This document shows, piece after piece, positions 3,487 to 21,574 of a stretch of DNA of 22,875 nt. The notes beneath the pieces are model-generated. The model saw only the letters and a program-made list of their open reading frames with translations. It ran no database searches and was not told the DNA's origin. Position numbers and translations under genes: made by a program. This DNA is from a virus. The stretch spans positions 170-23,044 of the IMG/VR virus record IMGVR_UViG_3300000235_000025; one strand, given 5' to 3'. How positions within the stretch are numbered: position 1 is the first letter of the stretch; each line of letters opens with the position of its first letter.

Positions 3487-4002
3487 ATGAGAAAAGAAGA
3501 AACAGAATCAGTTACCTTAGTTATGAATTGATTAGTGGGACGAGGATATGCAGTATCCTCTTCAGATAACGGGGGAAGTAGTAGTTTTTTGCATTACGAT
3601 TTACTATGTAAAAAGGAGGAGGTTAATAATTATATTGAGGTTAAAAAGAGAAGACTTACAGTATTGCAATTTTTAAACTATGCTAGTCAAGGATTTATAT
3701 ATGAGAATGTTAAGTACCAATTTTTAAAAGATAAAGCTAGCTACTATATAAATGTAATAAATCTCAATGGGATTGACTATATATTTAGTTGATATGTAGG
3801 AGTAAATACTAATTTAAAATTTAAGTGAAAAGGTAAAATGTGTAAAGCTACTACAGACTTTACTAAAAATAATTATGTTGAAAAACTTGTTAGTTATGTG
3901 TATCCTGTGAATGCACAAATTATTAAGTATGAGGGTGGTGTATACACACAAATAACGTATAAAGAATTAAATGATGAACTTAAAAACTATGGAAGATTAT
4001 AG
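3487..4002 (+). CDS. Unknown protein with three in-frame TGA codons
   Basis: An open frame of 171 codons if TGA is read as an amino acid. The ATG at 3487 follows AATAACATT, the same leader as at 3111. In-frame TGAs lie at 3529, 3790 and 3832; between them the sequence looks coding (for example TLVMN-W-LVGRGYAVSSSDN). The frame closes with TAG at 4000-4002, overlapping the next gene. With the standard code only a GTG-started piece (3535-3792) and an ATG-started piece (3838-4002, MCKATTDFTKNNYV) remain. The first TGA is hardest to explain otherwise, since the residues before it start from the better initiation site. Because no intact gene here stops at TGA, one long gene is preferred, although two adjacent genes split near 3790-3838 cannot be excluded. 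No domain was recognised. Confidence 0.55.
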
Positions 4003-4306
4003 ACATAATATAGTAAAAGAAATTTATGGAAGTGGATGACTAGCTAAGCACTGTCATTCACTTTCTAGTGATTATAGCCTTATGGAAGACTTAATGCAGG
4101 AGGTAGGGCTAATAATTATTGAGTATAGAGGTGAGGGGTTATTAAAATCCTATAAGGAAGGAAATCATTTGGCTTTTATTAAAATGATTATTCGCAATCA
4201 ATATAATAGCAACACGAGCCCATTTTGGAGTAAGTATAGAAAGAATCAAACATCTGAATTAATGGATGAATTTTATTTAGGAGAGGACAATGAAGACAAC
4301 TATTAA
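3989..4306 (+). CDS. Sigma-70 region 2-like protein with in-frame TGA
   Basis: A 105-codon frame starting MEDYRHNIVKEIYGSG, interrupted by TGA at 4037-4039, then continuing LAKHCHSLSSDYSLMEDLMQEVGLIIIEY and on to TAA at 4306. The DLMQEVGLIIIEY stretch followed by FIKMIIRNQYNSNTSPFW resembles sigma-70 region 2 (core RNA polymerase binding and -10 recognition) of the short sigma-like proteins encoded just ahead of terminase genes in Bacteroidota phages. The TGA falls where an aromatic residue fits (GSG-W-LAKH). Another tryptophan in the same gene is TGG. With standard code the protein would start at 4082 and lose its first helix. It overlaps the previous gene by 14 bp and the next by 17 bp. Role in transcription is inferred from similarity. 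Confidence 0.6.
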
Positions 4307-4571
4307 TAAGCATATGGTTATAGGTTCTTGAGAATCTTTTGATAATATAATGGCTCAGTACTATGATGGATTAGATATTTATGATTCTAGGACTACTAAG
4401 ATACTTAATTATCTAAACAGCATTGATCAGGTTGATAGGGAGGTATTTTTATTATTTGCAGAATTTAGAAGTTATCGTAAAGTTGCAGTTCAAACTAATA
4501 GAAGCTACTCTTACATAGGTGGTATAATTAAAAACGTGAGGAATAATATAATTAATTTAATTAGCACTTAA
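4290..4571 (+). CDS. Sigma-70 region 4-like HTH protein with in-frame TGA
   Basis: A 93-codon frame starting MKTTINKHMVIGS, then TGA at 4329-4331, then ESFDNIMAQYYDGLDIYDS and on to TAA at 4571. The second half (QVDREVFLLFAEFRSYRKVA, then a helix around RSYSYIGGIIKNVRNNII) matches the pattern of sigma-70 region 4: a helix, then a helix-turn-helix that would recognise the -35/-33 element. The start overlaps the region 2-like gene by 17 bp in another frame, so the two halves look like one sigma factor split in two and coupled in translation. With the standard code only MAQYYDG onward (4350) would be made. The two-protein sigma arrangement is inference; the TGA and the overlap are direct observations. 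Confidence 0.6.
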
Positions 4572-4887: not shown

Positions 4888-5132
4888 TGGCAAATAAAAA
4901 ACAACAACAACCTGAGATAGTGAATAGCAATGAAATTACTATTTATGATAAGTATGATAAGTATATTAAACAATTAGAATCTGGATATTTAATTGGTTTA
5001 AATCATACGGAGGCTATGGAAATACTTATGTACTGTGAGAGAAAGATGAGTATCAATATACCACTTAATATGAGTTGTGGTGTATGTTTAATGGATTTAA
5101 TAAAGCTATTTAAAAATATAAAGGATAAATAA
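4887..5132 (+). CDS. Hypothetical protein ahead of small terminase
   Basis: An 81-aa soluble protein beginning MANKKQQQPEIVNSNEI, followed by a helical region (YDKYDKYIKQLESG) and a C-terminal part with three cysteines, including the pair in SCGVCLMDLIKLFKN. The C-x-x-C near the end resembles other short proteins that precede small terminase genes in Bacteroidota phages, possibly metal-binding. It starts on the stop of the upstream membrane protein (TAATG) and ends in TAA two bases before the terminase small subunit, so it belongs to the same operon. Function is unknown. Confidence 0.5.
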   Translation: MANKKQQQPEIVNSNEITIYDKYDKYIKQLESGYLIGLNHTEAMEILMYCERKMSINIPLNMSCGVCLMDLIKLFKNIKDK

Positions 5133-5134
5133 TT

Positions 5135-5557
5135 ATGGGAAACCCAAAAACAAATACAGGGCCAGAATTAGATGATAAAGAATTAAAAGTAATTCATCTA
5201 TTTATTGGAGGAATGAATAGGATAGCTTCTTATAGGGAAGTATTTCCAATTGATATATGTGATAAGACTATTTATAATTGGTATAAGACTTCTAAAGTTA
5301 AAACCTATTTAGAAGAGTATGAACATAACTTAGCAGACTATAATGTTATAACTGACAGGGTACTACTTGAAATTATACAGTCAGAGTATGCTAGAGACTC
5401 TGATAAGATTAAAGCTATTAAATTGTGGAATGACACTAAGGGTAGGATTACAAACCTTATAAAAGTTGAAAATGAGAGCACAATTAATCTTGGAGGAACT
5501 ACCGATGAGGATTTAGAAAAGTTAATAGCCGCTATTCAGAATGGAAATAAGCAATAG
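5135..5557 (+). CDS. terS: Terminase small subunit
   Basis: A 140-aa protein directly before the large terminase and overlapping it by 17 bp. The N-terminal part (about residues 14-60, DDKELKVIHLFIGGMNRIASYREVFP then CDKTIYNWYKTSKVKTYL) has the pattern of a helix-turn-helix DNA-binding domain as in small terminases that recognise the packaging site. The rest is helical and charged, suited to ring oligomerisation, and the acidic C-terminal end (DEDLEKLIAAIQNGNKQ) could contact the large subunit. It ends in TAG. The assignment rests on position and this pattern; the sequence itself is divergent. Confidence 0.7.
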   Translation: MGNPKTNTGPELDDKELKVIHLFIGGMNRIASYREVFPIDICDKTIYNWYKTSKVKTYLEEYEHNLADYNVITDRVLLEIIQSEYARDSDKIKAIKLWNDTKGRITNLIKVENESTINLGGTTDEDLEKLIAAIQNGNKQ

Positions 5558-6893
5558 TGTTAAAAATGAGATAGTAAAGGAATATTGCTCTAGAAGCTTC
5601 TATAACTTCTTTTTGTACTTTTGGAAGCAAGTGGAGACCTCAGAGTATGATAACAACTGGCATATCAAAATGGTATGTGATGAACTGCAAGAACGCTTTG
5701 AAATATTCAATAGAAAAGAAATTGATGAAAGTACCACGAGGGATTTAATATTTAACCTCCCACCTGGATGTAGTAAATCATTAATGATTTCAGTATTTTT
5801 TCCAGCTTGGGTTTGGTTAATTAGACCATCGGTAAAGATAATTAGTTACTCATACAGTTATAAAGTAGCAGAAGAACTATCTGGTAAGTCTCTTAGATTA
5901 CTTATGAGTGATGAGTACCAATCAATTAGTAGCTTTAAATTAACATCCACTGCTGTTAGTAATATTAAAAATAATAAACACGGACAACGATTTGTTACTT
6001 CTACAGGAGGAGCAATTACAGGTATTCACGCTGATATAATTATTGGGGACGATCCAAACTCACCTCAAGCTATTAATTCAGAAGCATCTCGGCTTGAAGC
6101 TAGAAGGTTTGTTAGAGAAATACTACCATCTCGTAAAACATCAATTAGATATAGTTATGCAATTACTGTACAACAAAGACTACACAGCGAGGATGTTACA
6201 AGTTGTTTATTAGATTTAGGCAATCCTAAAATTATTTCTATACCAGCTATTAATGAGGCCAATCAATCATTCTTTCCTACTAGATTTCCGCTGTCCGCAT
6301 TAGAGAGTAAAAAAACTGAATTGGGCAGTCTATCATTTATGGCTCAGTATATGCAGATTACTCAAGATGCAAGCGGTGGTATTATTAAAAAGGATTGGTT
6401 AATTGAGGAGGTTACAGAGGAGAAACCATTATTTTACTTTTTAGATAGTGCCTATGGTGGCAAGAATGCTGACTATAATGCTATCTGTGGTTGTTATAGG
6501 AGAGGTAATAATTTAATAGTACACTCCCTTGAATTAAATAAGTATGAATTTCCAGAGCTTATTAAATGGTTAAAGAATAGTGTACCTGCTAAGAGTAAAA
6601 TATATATTGAAGGGAAAGCATCTGGTAAATCTATTATACAAACACTCAGGCTAGAAACTGACTTAAATATTATAGAAATAAAACCAACAGTGAGTAAGAA
6701 TGAACGTAAGCATAGTTGCTCACCATTTTTTGAAGCTGGTAGAATAATAATTAATAAAAATATTAAACACAAAGAAACTCTTATAGAACAGTTAATATTT
6801 GATAGTGTTAAGCACGACGATGCTTTAGATGTTGTTATGCACGCTATTGAGCAGTTACTTATTAAAAGGGTTGGTAATTACGATATACGATAA
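5541..6893 (+). CDS. terL: Terminase large subunit
   Basis: A 450-aa packaging motor ATPase and nuclease, which pumps DNA into the prohead and cuts it. The ATPase domain has an adenine-binding-like aromatic region near the start, Walker A LPPGCSKS (residues 73-80), and Walker B ADIIIGDDP (164-172). The RNase H-like nuclease domain shows the expected acidic residues: Asp302 in FYFLDSAYGG, Glu357 in IYIEGKASGKS and the cluster Asp426/Asp427/Asp430 in HDDALD near the C-terminus. Length is normal for the family. All key motifs are intact, so this gene looks functional. All its tryptophans are encoded by TGG and none by TGA. It starts inside the small terminase gene and its TAA overlaps the next ATG. 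Confidence 0.95.
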   Translation: MEISNSVKNEIVKEYCSRSFYNFFLYFWKQVETSEYDNNWHIKMVCDELQERFEIFNRKEIDESTTRDLIFNLPPGCSKSLMISVFFPAWVWLIRPSVKIISYSYSYKVAEELSGKSLRLLMSDEYQSISSFKLTSTAVSNIKNNKHGQRFVTSTGGAITGIHADIIIGDDPNSPQAINSEASRLEARRFVREILPSRKTSIRYSYAITVQQRLHSEDVTSCLLDLGNPKIISIPAINEANQSFFPTRFPLSALESKKTELGSLSFMAQYMQITQDASGGIIKKDWLIEEVTEEKPLFYFLDSAYGGKNADYNAICGCYRRGNNLIVHSLELNKYEFPELIKWLKNSVPAKSKIYIEGKASGKSIIQTLRLETDLNIIEIKPTVSKNERKHSCSPFFEAGRIIINKNIKHKETLIEQLIFDSVKHDDALDVVMHAIEQLLIKRVGNYDIR

Positions 6894-14596: not shown

Positions 14597-17500
14597 ATGA
14601 ATGAAGATATAAATATAAAAGTTGGTATTACAGGAGAGGATAGTGTTAATAAATTAAATAAATCCTTAGAGGCCACAAATAACACAGTAAAAGATGGAGT
14701 TAAAAGCTTTAGCAGTTATGTAAGGGAAGTACGGGCTGCTAAAATAGAAATGACTAACTCTGTGCAAGGTTCTGAACAATATAATAAAGCCCTGTCTAAA
14801 GCTATAAAATTACAGAGTGAATGGAAAGAAACTAATGATAAAGTAAAAGCTGGGGTAAGAGATCTTGGCTCTGTTACTAGATTAGTTGCTGGAACAATTA
14901 ATGGACTGGCTGGTGGATTTCAAGTAGCTCAAGGAGCAATGGCATTATTTGGTGTAGAGAATGATGCTGTTCTTAAAACTATGATGCAAATACAAGCTGT
15001 TATGTCTATAACACAAGGTATTGCAGGATTTGCTAATGGCTTTGATAACCTACAGGATTTAATGGTTGGGTTTAAAAATAAGGCAGGAGATGCTAAAGAT
15101 GCTGTAACCGAATTAAGTAAAGTATCAGGAGAAGCTTCCAGCAGTATGAGTAACTTAGCTAAAGAAGGAGCTGTTATTGGGTCTAACTTAGCTGGTACAG
15201 TAGGAATAGTAGGTGGCGTTAATAATGAACTTGAAAACCTAGCAACATCAGTTGGGGATGTTGGTAAGCAATTTGGTAAAAGTTATGGAGATATAACAGT
15301 AATACTAGATAGATTTAATAAATCACAAATAGATTCAGATATAGCTTTACTAAAAAGTGGTAAAGCTTTTAAATCATTAACCTTTGCTTCTAATAAACAT
15401 TTAGAATCTTTAGGGGGGATTATTGATAAAAAAGAGATGCTAAAAGCATTAGAAGAACGATCAGGTGTTCTTGGTCAAAACATAGAAGCTGATAGAAGCT
15501 GTTGAAGCTGCTAAAATTGCTGAAACTGCTAAAGCAGAAGCCACTAATAAAGCTGCTGAAGCCACTAATAAAGCTGCTGAAGCCACTAATAAATCAACTA
15601 TTAATTTAAAATCCCAATTAATCACAATGGGAGTTTGGATTATAGCTATTGCTGCAGCTACTTATGCTATTACTAGTTTAATTGAGTGGATAAATAAAAT
15701 ACCAGAAAGTGCTAAAGTTAAAATTGAGGTAGACACTGATGTATTTAAAGCATTAGGTAAAGATCTTATATTAATTAATAAATTCGTTAATGACTATAGG
15801 AAGGCATCTAAAGAGCATAATGTAGAACGAATGGCTGAACTTGAAGAGTTTGGTAAGAAAGAATTTGACTTAAATGAGGCAAGACTTAAACAAATTATAG
15901 AAACTACTGATGGTTGGAAATTAGCTTTTAAAGAATATTTAAAAATGGCAGAGGACACTTATTGGAATGAATCTATTATTAAAAAGAAGGTAGAAGCCCA
16001 ACAAACAGCATTAACTGCTAAATCAACAGCTATTAGTTTATTTAAAAGTCAATCAAGTAATGGATTTATGAATGGAAAAACTGCACAAGCTGGTATATCT
16101 GCTGATACTGCTGGTGGTTGGACTTGGGAACAATTATATGAGGCTTCCCAAAAAGATAGTTGGGCCGGTAAACTTGATACAGATCTAAGAGCTATTGGAA
16201 TACCTCAGCAAATAATTGATGAATTAAGAAAGGCTAGAGAGGCAAATGAAATAATTAAAGGATTACCTCAACTTAGGAATGTTGATTTAAAAACTGGAAT
16301 AAAATCAACTGTCTCAACTAAATCAACACCTAATGTAACATTAGATAAATCGCGAGGTTTAAAGGCAATTAAACAAGAAGCTGAAATAGTAGATAGAAAA
16401 CCTTTTAGTAAACCTATAGTAGATTCTGAAATTAAATATACCAATGAAGAACTTGTTATTATGGAGGACAATAACAAGGTGAGAAAAGGTATATATGATG
16501 ATGCTATTGAATACCAAATAGATTATGTTAAACGTAGAGAAGATGCTAGACAGCAGGACTTAAATAATGAGCTAGCTTATCAGTATGGTCAAAAAATACT
16601 TATTGAAGCAGAGGTTGAAAAGTTTGATACTGTTAATGCAGAGTATGATTCTGTTATTAGGGATTTAAATATCTATAATAAAAACAAGACTAACCTATTA
16701 AATACTAATGCTTTAATTGAGGAGGAGATTAATAAATCTAAAGATCAAAAAAGCATTGAAGCATTAAATAGTCAAAAGCAAATTAACCTTGAGAGCATTA
16801 AACTTATAGAACAGGATATAGCTGCTAAACAGACCCAAAAAACTACAATTGAAACACAGCTTAAAGAATTTGAAGAATACCCTAACAAGATTAAACAAAT
16901 AACTGAAAGCATTGCACAATTAAATGTATCCATTACTGATAGCACTAGAACACAAGTTGAAGCTGAGCGTGACCTATGGCAAGAACGTGTAAAAATGGCT
17001 AAGGATTATTTAGATGCTATTAGTGATGTTGCTGGAGGAATGGCTGATATTGCACAAGGTAATATGGATTTAATTAGTGCTGAGTATGACCAACAGATTT
17101 GGGCTAATGATGAGATGATTCAATCTGATAAACAGAGAGAGAATAAGGCTTATGAAATTGAAATGCAAAGATGGAATGCTCTCAAAGAGAATTTTGAAAT
17201 GCAAAAGAAAATGAAAGAAGCTCAGGCTTGGATGGATTTTGCTAGTGGTTCGGTTGGTATATGGACAGCCCCTGGTATTACATCCCTTGCACCATTTGGT
17301 TATATACTTGCAGGTATTCAACAGGCTGCTTTATTAGCTTCAACTGTAGGTAATGTTGAAAGTATTAGAGCACAGCAAATGCTTAAACCTCATAAGCCAG
17401 GGAGTGGTTCTAGTGGTGGAGGTGGAGGAGGTGGTATTAATGTGGCCCTTAATCCAATTAAAGAAGCCTTAACTTCCAGAGATGAAAATATAAATACTAT

Positions 17501-20518: not shown

Positions 20519-21574
20519 CTTTTTATCGGTAATTAAATTTGCCAAAGAAAAAACAACAGATAGTATATTTAACCCAAACCAAAAGTACCATAAATGGGAG
20601 GATGCAGATATTCTTCTAGATTTATATAACTCTGTTCCAGAGCATTCAAGCTCTATAGATTATATAGTTGATTTAATTGTTACTAATGGGAGGATGCAGA
20701 TATTCTTCTAGATTTATATAACTCTGTTCCAGAGCATTCAAGCTCTATAGATTATATAGTTGATTTAATTGTTACTAGTGGAATAGATGACTTAGATTAT
20801 TGGACTCTACAAAAAACTGTATTGGACTATATAATTTTTGGAGGTTTTGTATTTCAAATAATTAAAACTCGTGGTGGAGACACCATTAAAAACTATGTTG
20901 ATATATCTAAATGTAGATTTTCAGCAGATAAAAAACACATAGGCTATTCAGAAAAATGGAATACCTATAAAACTGAAATTAAATGGTATCCAATAGTACA
21001 GGAATCCATTACAGAAGGAATGTTCTACTTTAAAAATAATAAGTCAAGAGATATATATCCTAGACCTTATTATGTATCATCTATGACTTCCTTGAACACA
21101 ATGAAGTCTATTATAGAATACCATTACAATAATGCCTCTAATGGGTTTGCTCCTAATGTAGTTATTAACTTTAATGGTGGAGATCCAGGAGAAGAGGTAA
21201 AAGAAAGGATTGAAAAATCAATTGAAGATAAATTTACAGGAGAAAATGGCAAAAAATTTATTTTATCCTTTAATGATTCAGAAGAAACTAAAACAACTAT
21301 TGAGAAACTAGATAATGATAACCTTGACCAAAAGTTTGAGCAATTGCAGAAGTTTTTACAAGAGCAGGCATTTATATCACATAAACTTACTAGTGGTTGT
21401 TTAATTGGTAAATATCCAGAAGGCTCAGGGTTTTCAAAACAGGAATATGAGGAATCATTAGCTGTATTTAAAGGCACAACTATTAGATCATTAAGGTTTG
21501 AATTGGAGTATGGATTAAGTAAATTATTTGGTAAAGAAATTAAAATTAAGGAGGAAATAAATAATGACAACTAG
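20511..21574 (+). CDS. Portal protein, frame broken by 92-bp duplication
   Basis: Two frames, 20511-20711 and 20822-21574, are parts of one portal protein. A 92-bp segment is repeated in tandem at 20593-20684 and 20685-20776 with no differences. Since 92 is not a multiple of three, the first frame ends at TAG 20709. Removing one unit gives a continuous 323-aa protein reading YIVDLIVTSGIDDLDYWTLQ across the join. Portal features are N-terminal WEDADILLDLYNSVPEHSSSIDYIV, a TRGGDTIKNYVDI region, RPYYVSSMTSLNTM, NVVINFNGGDPGEEVKERIEKSIEDKFTG and the C-terminal TTIRSLRFELEYGLSKLFG. The portal is the ring through which DNA enters and leaves the head; a broken copy would prevent assembly. The length is near that of the shorter portals. 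Confidence 0.75.
20593..20776 (+). repeat. 92-bp tandem duplication in portal gene
   Basis: Bases 20593-20684 and 20685-20776 are identical. The match ends one base later, at 20777. The repeated unit holds portal codons from the WEDADILL region through YIVDLIVT. Deleting one unit restores the portal frame exactly, which indicates a recent event or an assembly error. Confidence 0.97.
21548..21554 (+). promoter_or_regulatory. Shine-Dalgarno-like AAGGAGG
   Basis: AAGGAGG lies nine bases before the ATG at 21564, within the end of the portal gene. Almost no other start in this window has such a motif, and Bacteroidota generally do not depend on it, so it may be chance (it encodes Lys-Glu-Glu of the portal). 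Confidence 0.3.

Follow-up and report, generated by a model that had tools for sequence, protein, structure and literature searches.

Three overlapping genes with in-frame TGA codons

The window analysed here is a stretch of 22,875 nucleotides that forms part of a viral record of 23,044 bases (IMG/VR IMGVR_UViG_3300000235_000025). Ahead of the terminase it carries three small genes that begin with ATG, overlap by short stretches and, when translated with code 4, run through five in-frame TGA codons (Table 1). A sequence-only reading had already pointed to these codons, and its positions were accurate apart from that of the third TGA in gene 1, which it had put at 3832, six bases off the true start at 3826. 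All three tryptophan codons of gene 1, and the single one of gene 3, are TGA.

Table 1. Genes and in-frame TGA codons considered in this study (positions in the window)
Feature	Position	Strand	Remarks
Gene 1, PD-(D/E)XK, Hjc-like nuclease	3487..4002	+	171 aa in code 4; ends TAG
In-frame TGA, gene 1 codon 15	3529..3531	+	Trp identity inferred
In-frame TGA, gene 1 codon 102	3790..3792	+	opposite Trp (TGG) of L001 by MAFFT
In-frame TGA, gene 1 codon 114	3826..3828	+	T or gap in homologue
Gene 2, sigma region-2-like half	3971..4306	+	111 aa; one TGA, one TGG; ends TAA
In-frame TGA, gene 2 codon 23	4037..4039	+	conserved Trp position, five phages
Gene 3, C-terminal HTH half of split sigma-like protein	4290..4571	+	93 aa; ends TAA
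In-frame TGA, gene 3 codon 14	4329..4331	+	Trp (TGG) in L001, L002, L003
Terminase large subunit (TerL)	5541..6893	+	six TGG, zero TGA; clade marker gene

Judged by their terminases, four viral contigs are near relatives of the window phage: L001/G001 (79%), L002/G002 (73%), L003/G003 (67%) and L028 (60%, measured on the 130 conserved residues used in the search). Broader searches returned 24 loci for gene 2 and 65 for gene 4, the near relatives counted in. Gene 1 has a homologue in L001 (31% identity, E 2e-13), and as a lone query it retrieved no relatives from viral contigs or isolate phages. Its structural model (mean pLDDT 63) matched archaeal Hjc Holliday-junction resolvases in Foldseek (best E 3e-3, probability 1.00), and there was a weak match to NOV_C. 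Since the TGA at codon 15 falls within predicted helix 1 (residues 3-18), a complete fold of the protein would require readthrough.

Homologues of gene 2 are found in L001 (82%), L002 (50%), L003 (43%) and L028 (34%), and none were found in isolate phages. The predicted structure of its product weakly resembles region 2 of ECF sigma factors: the model is all-helical, its top PDB matches are to that region at non-significant scores, and there is a weak match to the sigma factor family phrog_1740. Gene 3 has a homologue in L001 at 70%. In this clade the sigma-like protein is laid out as two overlapping ORFs (3971-4571 in the window), and in two more distant phages (L046 and L054) a single ORF covers both halves, corresponding to genes 2 and 3.

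Tryptophan as the reading of UGA

We aligned the products of the three genes with those of the relatives after masking each TGA as X, which avoids circularity. The codon at 4037 falls on a column of gene 2 that holds tryptophan or TGA in all four relatives, being TGG in G001, G003 and L028 and, in G002, again TGA (L002 6949). The codon at 4329 aligns with tryptophan, encoded by TGG, in G001, G002 and G003, and with histidine in L028. At 3790, MAFFT placed the codon on a tryptophan (TGG) of L001, the sole homologue, even when masked, while BLASTP with the masked sequence placed it on asparagine. The homologue carries leucine or glutamate at 3529 and threonine or a gap at 3826. The earlier proposal that TGA stands for tryptophan is thus firm at 4037 and 4329 and weaker at 3790, where it depends on one homologue; the remaining two sites lack a tryptophan homologue, and we infer their identity from the other three.

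G002 has a second in-frame TGA, at 4906, in an unrelated nuclease-like gene whose only homologue found has phenylalanine at this place; G001 has no in-frame TGA. An unbiased scan of 113 loci for in-frame TGA codons with homologue support returned cases in sense genes from the window and L002 only; among the other rows were many that lie opposite conserved genes, in a different frame from such genes, or past likely TGA stops.

A second line of evidence is the disappearance of TGA from among the stop codons. With ORFs picked by one common rule, none of about 82 intact genes across the window, G001 and G002 ends in TGA, compared with 106 of 410 (26%) in 21 other low-GC relatives, a set of contigs with GC below 33% that includes G003 and L028 (Fisher p = 5e-10). 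For the window this agrees with the sequence-only reading, which had reported that every intact gene ends in TAA or TAG; the one ORF that does end in TGA (14597-15505) is the tape-measure gene cut short by a frameshift. TGA is the stop of 1 gene out of 27-28 for G003 and of 4 genes out of 19-20 for L028, so that the relatives look like a gradient in which TGA passes from stop to depleted stop to sense codon. Behind each of the G003 TGA stops at L003 4553 and 7553, one of which is in a short gene, a TAA follows within two codons, as if it served as a backup against leaky UGA.

Because homologues carry tryptophan at 4037 and 4329, a second phage shares the TGA at 4037 and TGA stops have disappeared, the conclusion that UGA is read as tryptophan in the window phage and in its near relative G002, and no longer serves as a stop, is well supported.

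The use of this codon is both sparse and clustered. The window has 59 TGG and 5 TGA among its tryptophan codons (TGA 5/64, 8%); TGA makes up five of the six in genes 1-3 and none of the 58 elsewhere (hypergeometric p = 7.9e-7), and every tryptophan codon of the packaging, virion and lysis genes is TGG. That TGA keeps to small genes preceding the terminase, as already suspected from the sequence, is therefore borne out in the window, and it holds in G002 as well, where both TGAs lie between the helicase and small terminase genes (18 TGG and 2 TGA there, 45 TGG elsewhere), a clustering with p = 0.09 when taken alone. Codons ending in A account for 74% in comparable two-fold pairs of the window, against 8% for TGA, which means that TGA is strongly avoided outside genes 1-3 and that UGA clearly does not rank as a full equivalent of UGG. 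Unrestricted use of TGA for tryptophan across the genome, with all five instances inside three genes, was not seen. We also sought a programmed-readthrough signal in the flanks of the seven TGAs (five in the window, two in G002) and rejected it; the contexts differ, and no common sequence follows the codons.

Source of UGA decoding and competing explanations

A second contig of 4,253 bases (L066) overlaps the first 1,873 bases of the record at 99.95% and extends leftwards into the final part of a gene that carries the repeat NETQARIAAD, as found in the tail gene that closes the right end of the record. L066 thereby joins both ends of the record, and the genome is therefore circular or permuted and nearly closed, at about 26 kb; the gap that remains unread is small and probably falls within the tail gene. 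Searches with ARAGORN (under the bacterial code and, in some runs, also under code 4) and with the Rfam model RF00005 detected no tRNA in the window, in G001-G003 or in L066, although RF00005 gave a match in 14 of 14 reference genomes used as a positive control. No suppressor tRNA was thus found in the window, as had been noted before, and the further suggestion that the phage might carry such a gene outside the window has become unlikely, given that a tRNA of its own with a UCA anticodon was not found in this nearly closed genome, the small tail-gene gap aside.

Since the phage has no tRNA, decoding is probably supplied by the host. We consider it likely that UGA is read as tryptophan through host decoding and is tolerated in low-demand genes only. 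The host, rather than the phage, would supply the reading of UGA, whether full or leaky, and this would be the simplest account; the codon would be tolerated in gene 1, the resolvase-like nuclease, and in genes 2 and 3, the split sigma-like regulator, presumably because little of either product is needed. A host whose tRNA-Trp has a 4-bp anticodon stem would be expected to yield such a pattern, with no UGA stops and with UGA present where little protein is required. This form is the only tRNA-Trp in about 6.5% of standard-code bacterial genomes, and in 13 of 19 orders UGA stops are fewer where it occurs (PMC13092985). A fully reassigned host would fit the missing UGA stops and would fit the strong avoidance of UGA only if the change were recent.

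The most serious competitor, which we nonetheless regard as rather unlikely, is that UGA remains mainly a stop in the host and that the TGAs act as leaky control points, low-level readthrough with tryptophan keeping the nuclease and the sigma-like protein scarce or tied to the state of the cell. Such control would agree with the placement of TGA in putative regulatory and nuclease genes and in none of the virion or lysis genes, with the missing phage tRNA, and with the identical TGACTA context of the gene 2 site in two phages; TGA followed by C is a weak terminator in E. coli. However, the seven TGAs share no context, gene 1 would need three readthroughs, and TGA stops have been lost completely. 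Moreover, G001, whose TerL is 79% identical, carries TGG at both the gene 2 and the gene 3 position, so that regulation through UGA would be unconserved.

It is very unlikely that genes 1-3 are decaying pseudogenes with nonsense mutations, even though the window also holds a frameshifted tape-measure gene and a portal gene broken by a 92-bp duplication. All five lesions are TGA, with no TAA, TAG or frameshift among them, whereas counts made on the G001 homologues show that changes from TGG to TGA make up only 3-18% of one-step nonsense paths, depending on the gene and on transition bias, and that most such paths lead to TAA. The TGA of gene 2 is found again, at the corresponding codon, in the independent phage G002. 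Furthermore, genes 2 and 3 are under no relaxed selection and are constrained like their intact neighbours, with dN/dS of 0.134/1.38 for gene 2 and 0.201/0.84 for gene 3, against 0.191/0.74 for gene 4 and 0.153/1.34 for TerL. We rejected nonsense decay on the mutation-path counts and these dN/dS values.

Still less probable is that UGA encodes another residue, such as glycine (code 25), cysteine or selenocysteine: the two sites of gene 1 that lack tryptophan homologues would leave room for it, but homologues have tryptophan at 4037 and 4329 and never glycine or cysteine, two residues that the alignments led us to reject. Sequencing or assembly error is the least credible explanation of all, for although two frame lesions, both at repeats within late genes, hint at an imperfect assembly, errors would neither land on conserved tryptophan codons nor turn up again at an identical position in G002, which is a separate IMG/VR record.

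As to these lesions, a perfect 92-bp tandem duplication (20593-20776, copies 100% identical) breaks the frame of the portal gene, which is intact in G001, and a frameshift near 15480, among GAAGCTG repeats (15470-15505), splits the tape-measure gene, which is open in G001 and G002. The assembly is therefore not flawless, yet the two lesions do not explain TGA at conserved tryptophan codons.

Affiliation and relation to other recoded phages

The sequence-only reading had brought up crAss-like phages of Bacteroidota as a precedent. Judged by its genome of about 26 kb and by its closest TerL and portal relatives, the phage does not look crAss-like: the best matches of its portal and terminase are proteins from flavobacterial siphophages (Croceibacter, Cellulophaga and Nonlabens phages), at only 24-35% identity. 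This distant similarity, together with Shine-Dalgarno-like sites at only 3 of 25 gene starts, suggests a host among the Bacteroidota. A host search with TerL profiles against GTDB genomes found no relative.

Among phages with UGA as tryptophan, Lera, a crAss-like phage of the Zeta group, uses translation table 4, has 26 tRNA genes including tRNA-SUP-TCA, and carries TGA in 41 ORFs; those of known function are mostly structural, with lysis genes in addition (PMC12386605). Our phage resembles the Zeta-group crAss-like phages that read UGA as tryptophan in that homologues have tryptophan at the recoded sites, in that some of those phages also lack a suppressor tRNA, and in that the code differs between close relatives (PMC12386605, PMC10136315). 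It differs from Lera in its genome of some 26 kb, without tRNA genes and with five TGAs, none of them in structural or lysis genes.

According to the accounts of Borges et al. (2022) given in PMC11210395 and PMC10136315, recoded stops in gut phages occur mainly in late structural and lysis genes, and a review likewise ascribes a late-gene pattern to recoded phages (PMC10136315). As far as those accounts go, the gut phages and ours have in common that recoded stops are confined to one class of genes, and they differ in that here the class consists of nuclease and sigma-like genes only, and not of late genes. What is new in our case is that TGA is confined to nuclease and sigma-like genes, and that the phage concerned is small and belongs to another group. 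The absence of a tRNA is not new, as an opal suppressor tRNA is present in only 11 of 73 table-4 phages (PMC11210395). Hosts that read UGA as tryptophan, such as Mycoplasma and Spiroplasma, are known for 22 of 27 table-4 phages in INPHARED (PMC11210395). Phages of Mycoplasma and Spiroplasma likewise need no tRNA of their own, the host decoding UGA; by contrast, the nearest proteins of our phage belong to flavobacterial phages, and its use of UGA is sparse.

L028 commonly uses TGA stops, G003 has almost none left, and the window, G001 and G002 have none. It is possible, although we would put it at somewhat short of an even chance, that this lineage, and by implication its host, is midway in a change of UGA from stop to tryptophan, in which UGA is starting to serve for tryptophan in low-demand genes alone, with decoding by the host and no phage tRNA. 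If this is true and the host belongs to the Bacteroidota, the latter would be an apparently unreported UGA-reading lineage of that phylum. How phages that read UGA as tryptophan decode it when they lack a suppressor tRNA, and why recoding is limited to some genes, are open questions in the field. The present group of small phages free of tRNA genes, which has close relatives before and after the change and shows the late-gene pattern reversed, makes two points open to testing in some 26 kb of sequence: that UGA stops are lost before UGA is used in sense, and that the host supplies the decoding.

Two minor features set members of this group apart or mark the window itself. GIY-YIG-like ORFs, possible homing endonucleases of which one is short, lie between genes in G001 and G002 (L010 5787-6317, L002 1589-2107 and L011 3698-3913) and are missing at these places in the window. 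The window, in turn, has an identical 35-bp direct repeat, with one copy upstream of a helicase-like gene (1206-1240) and the other inside the start of that gene (1375-1409).
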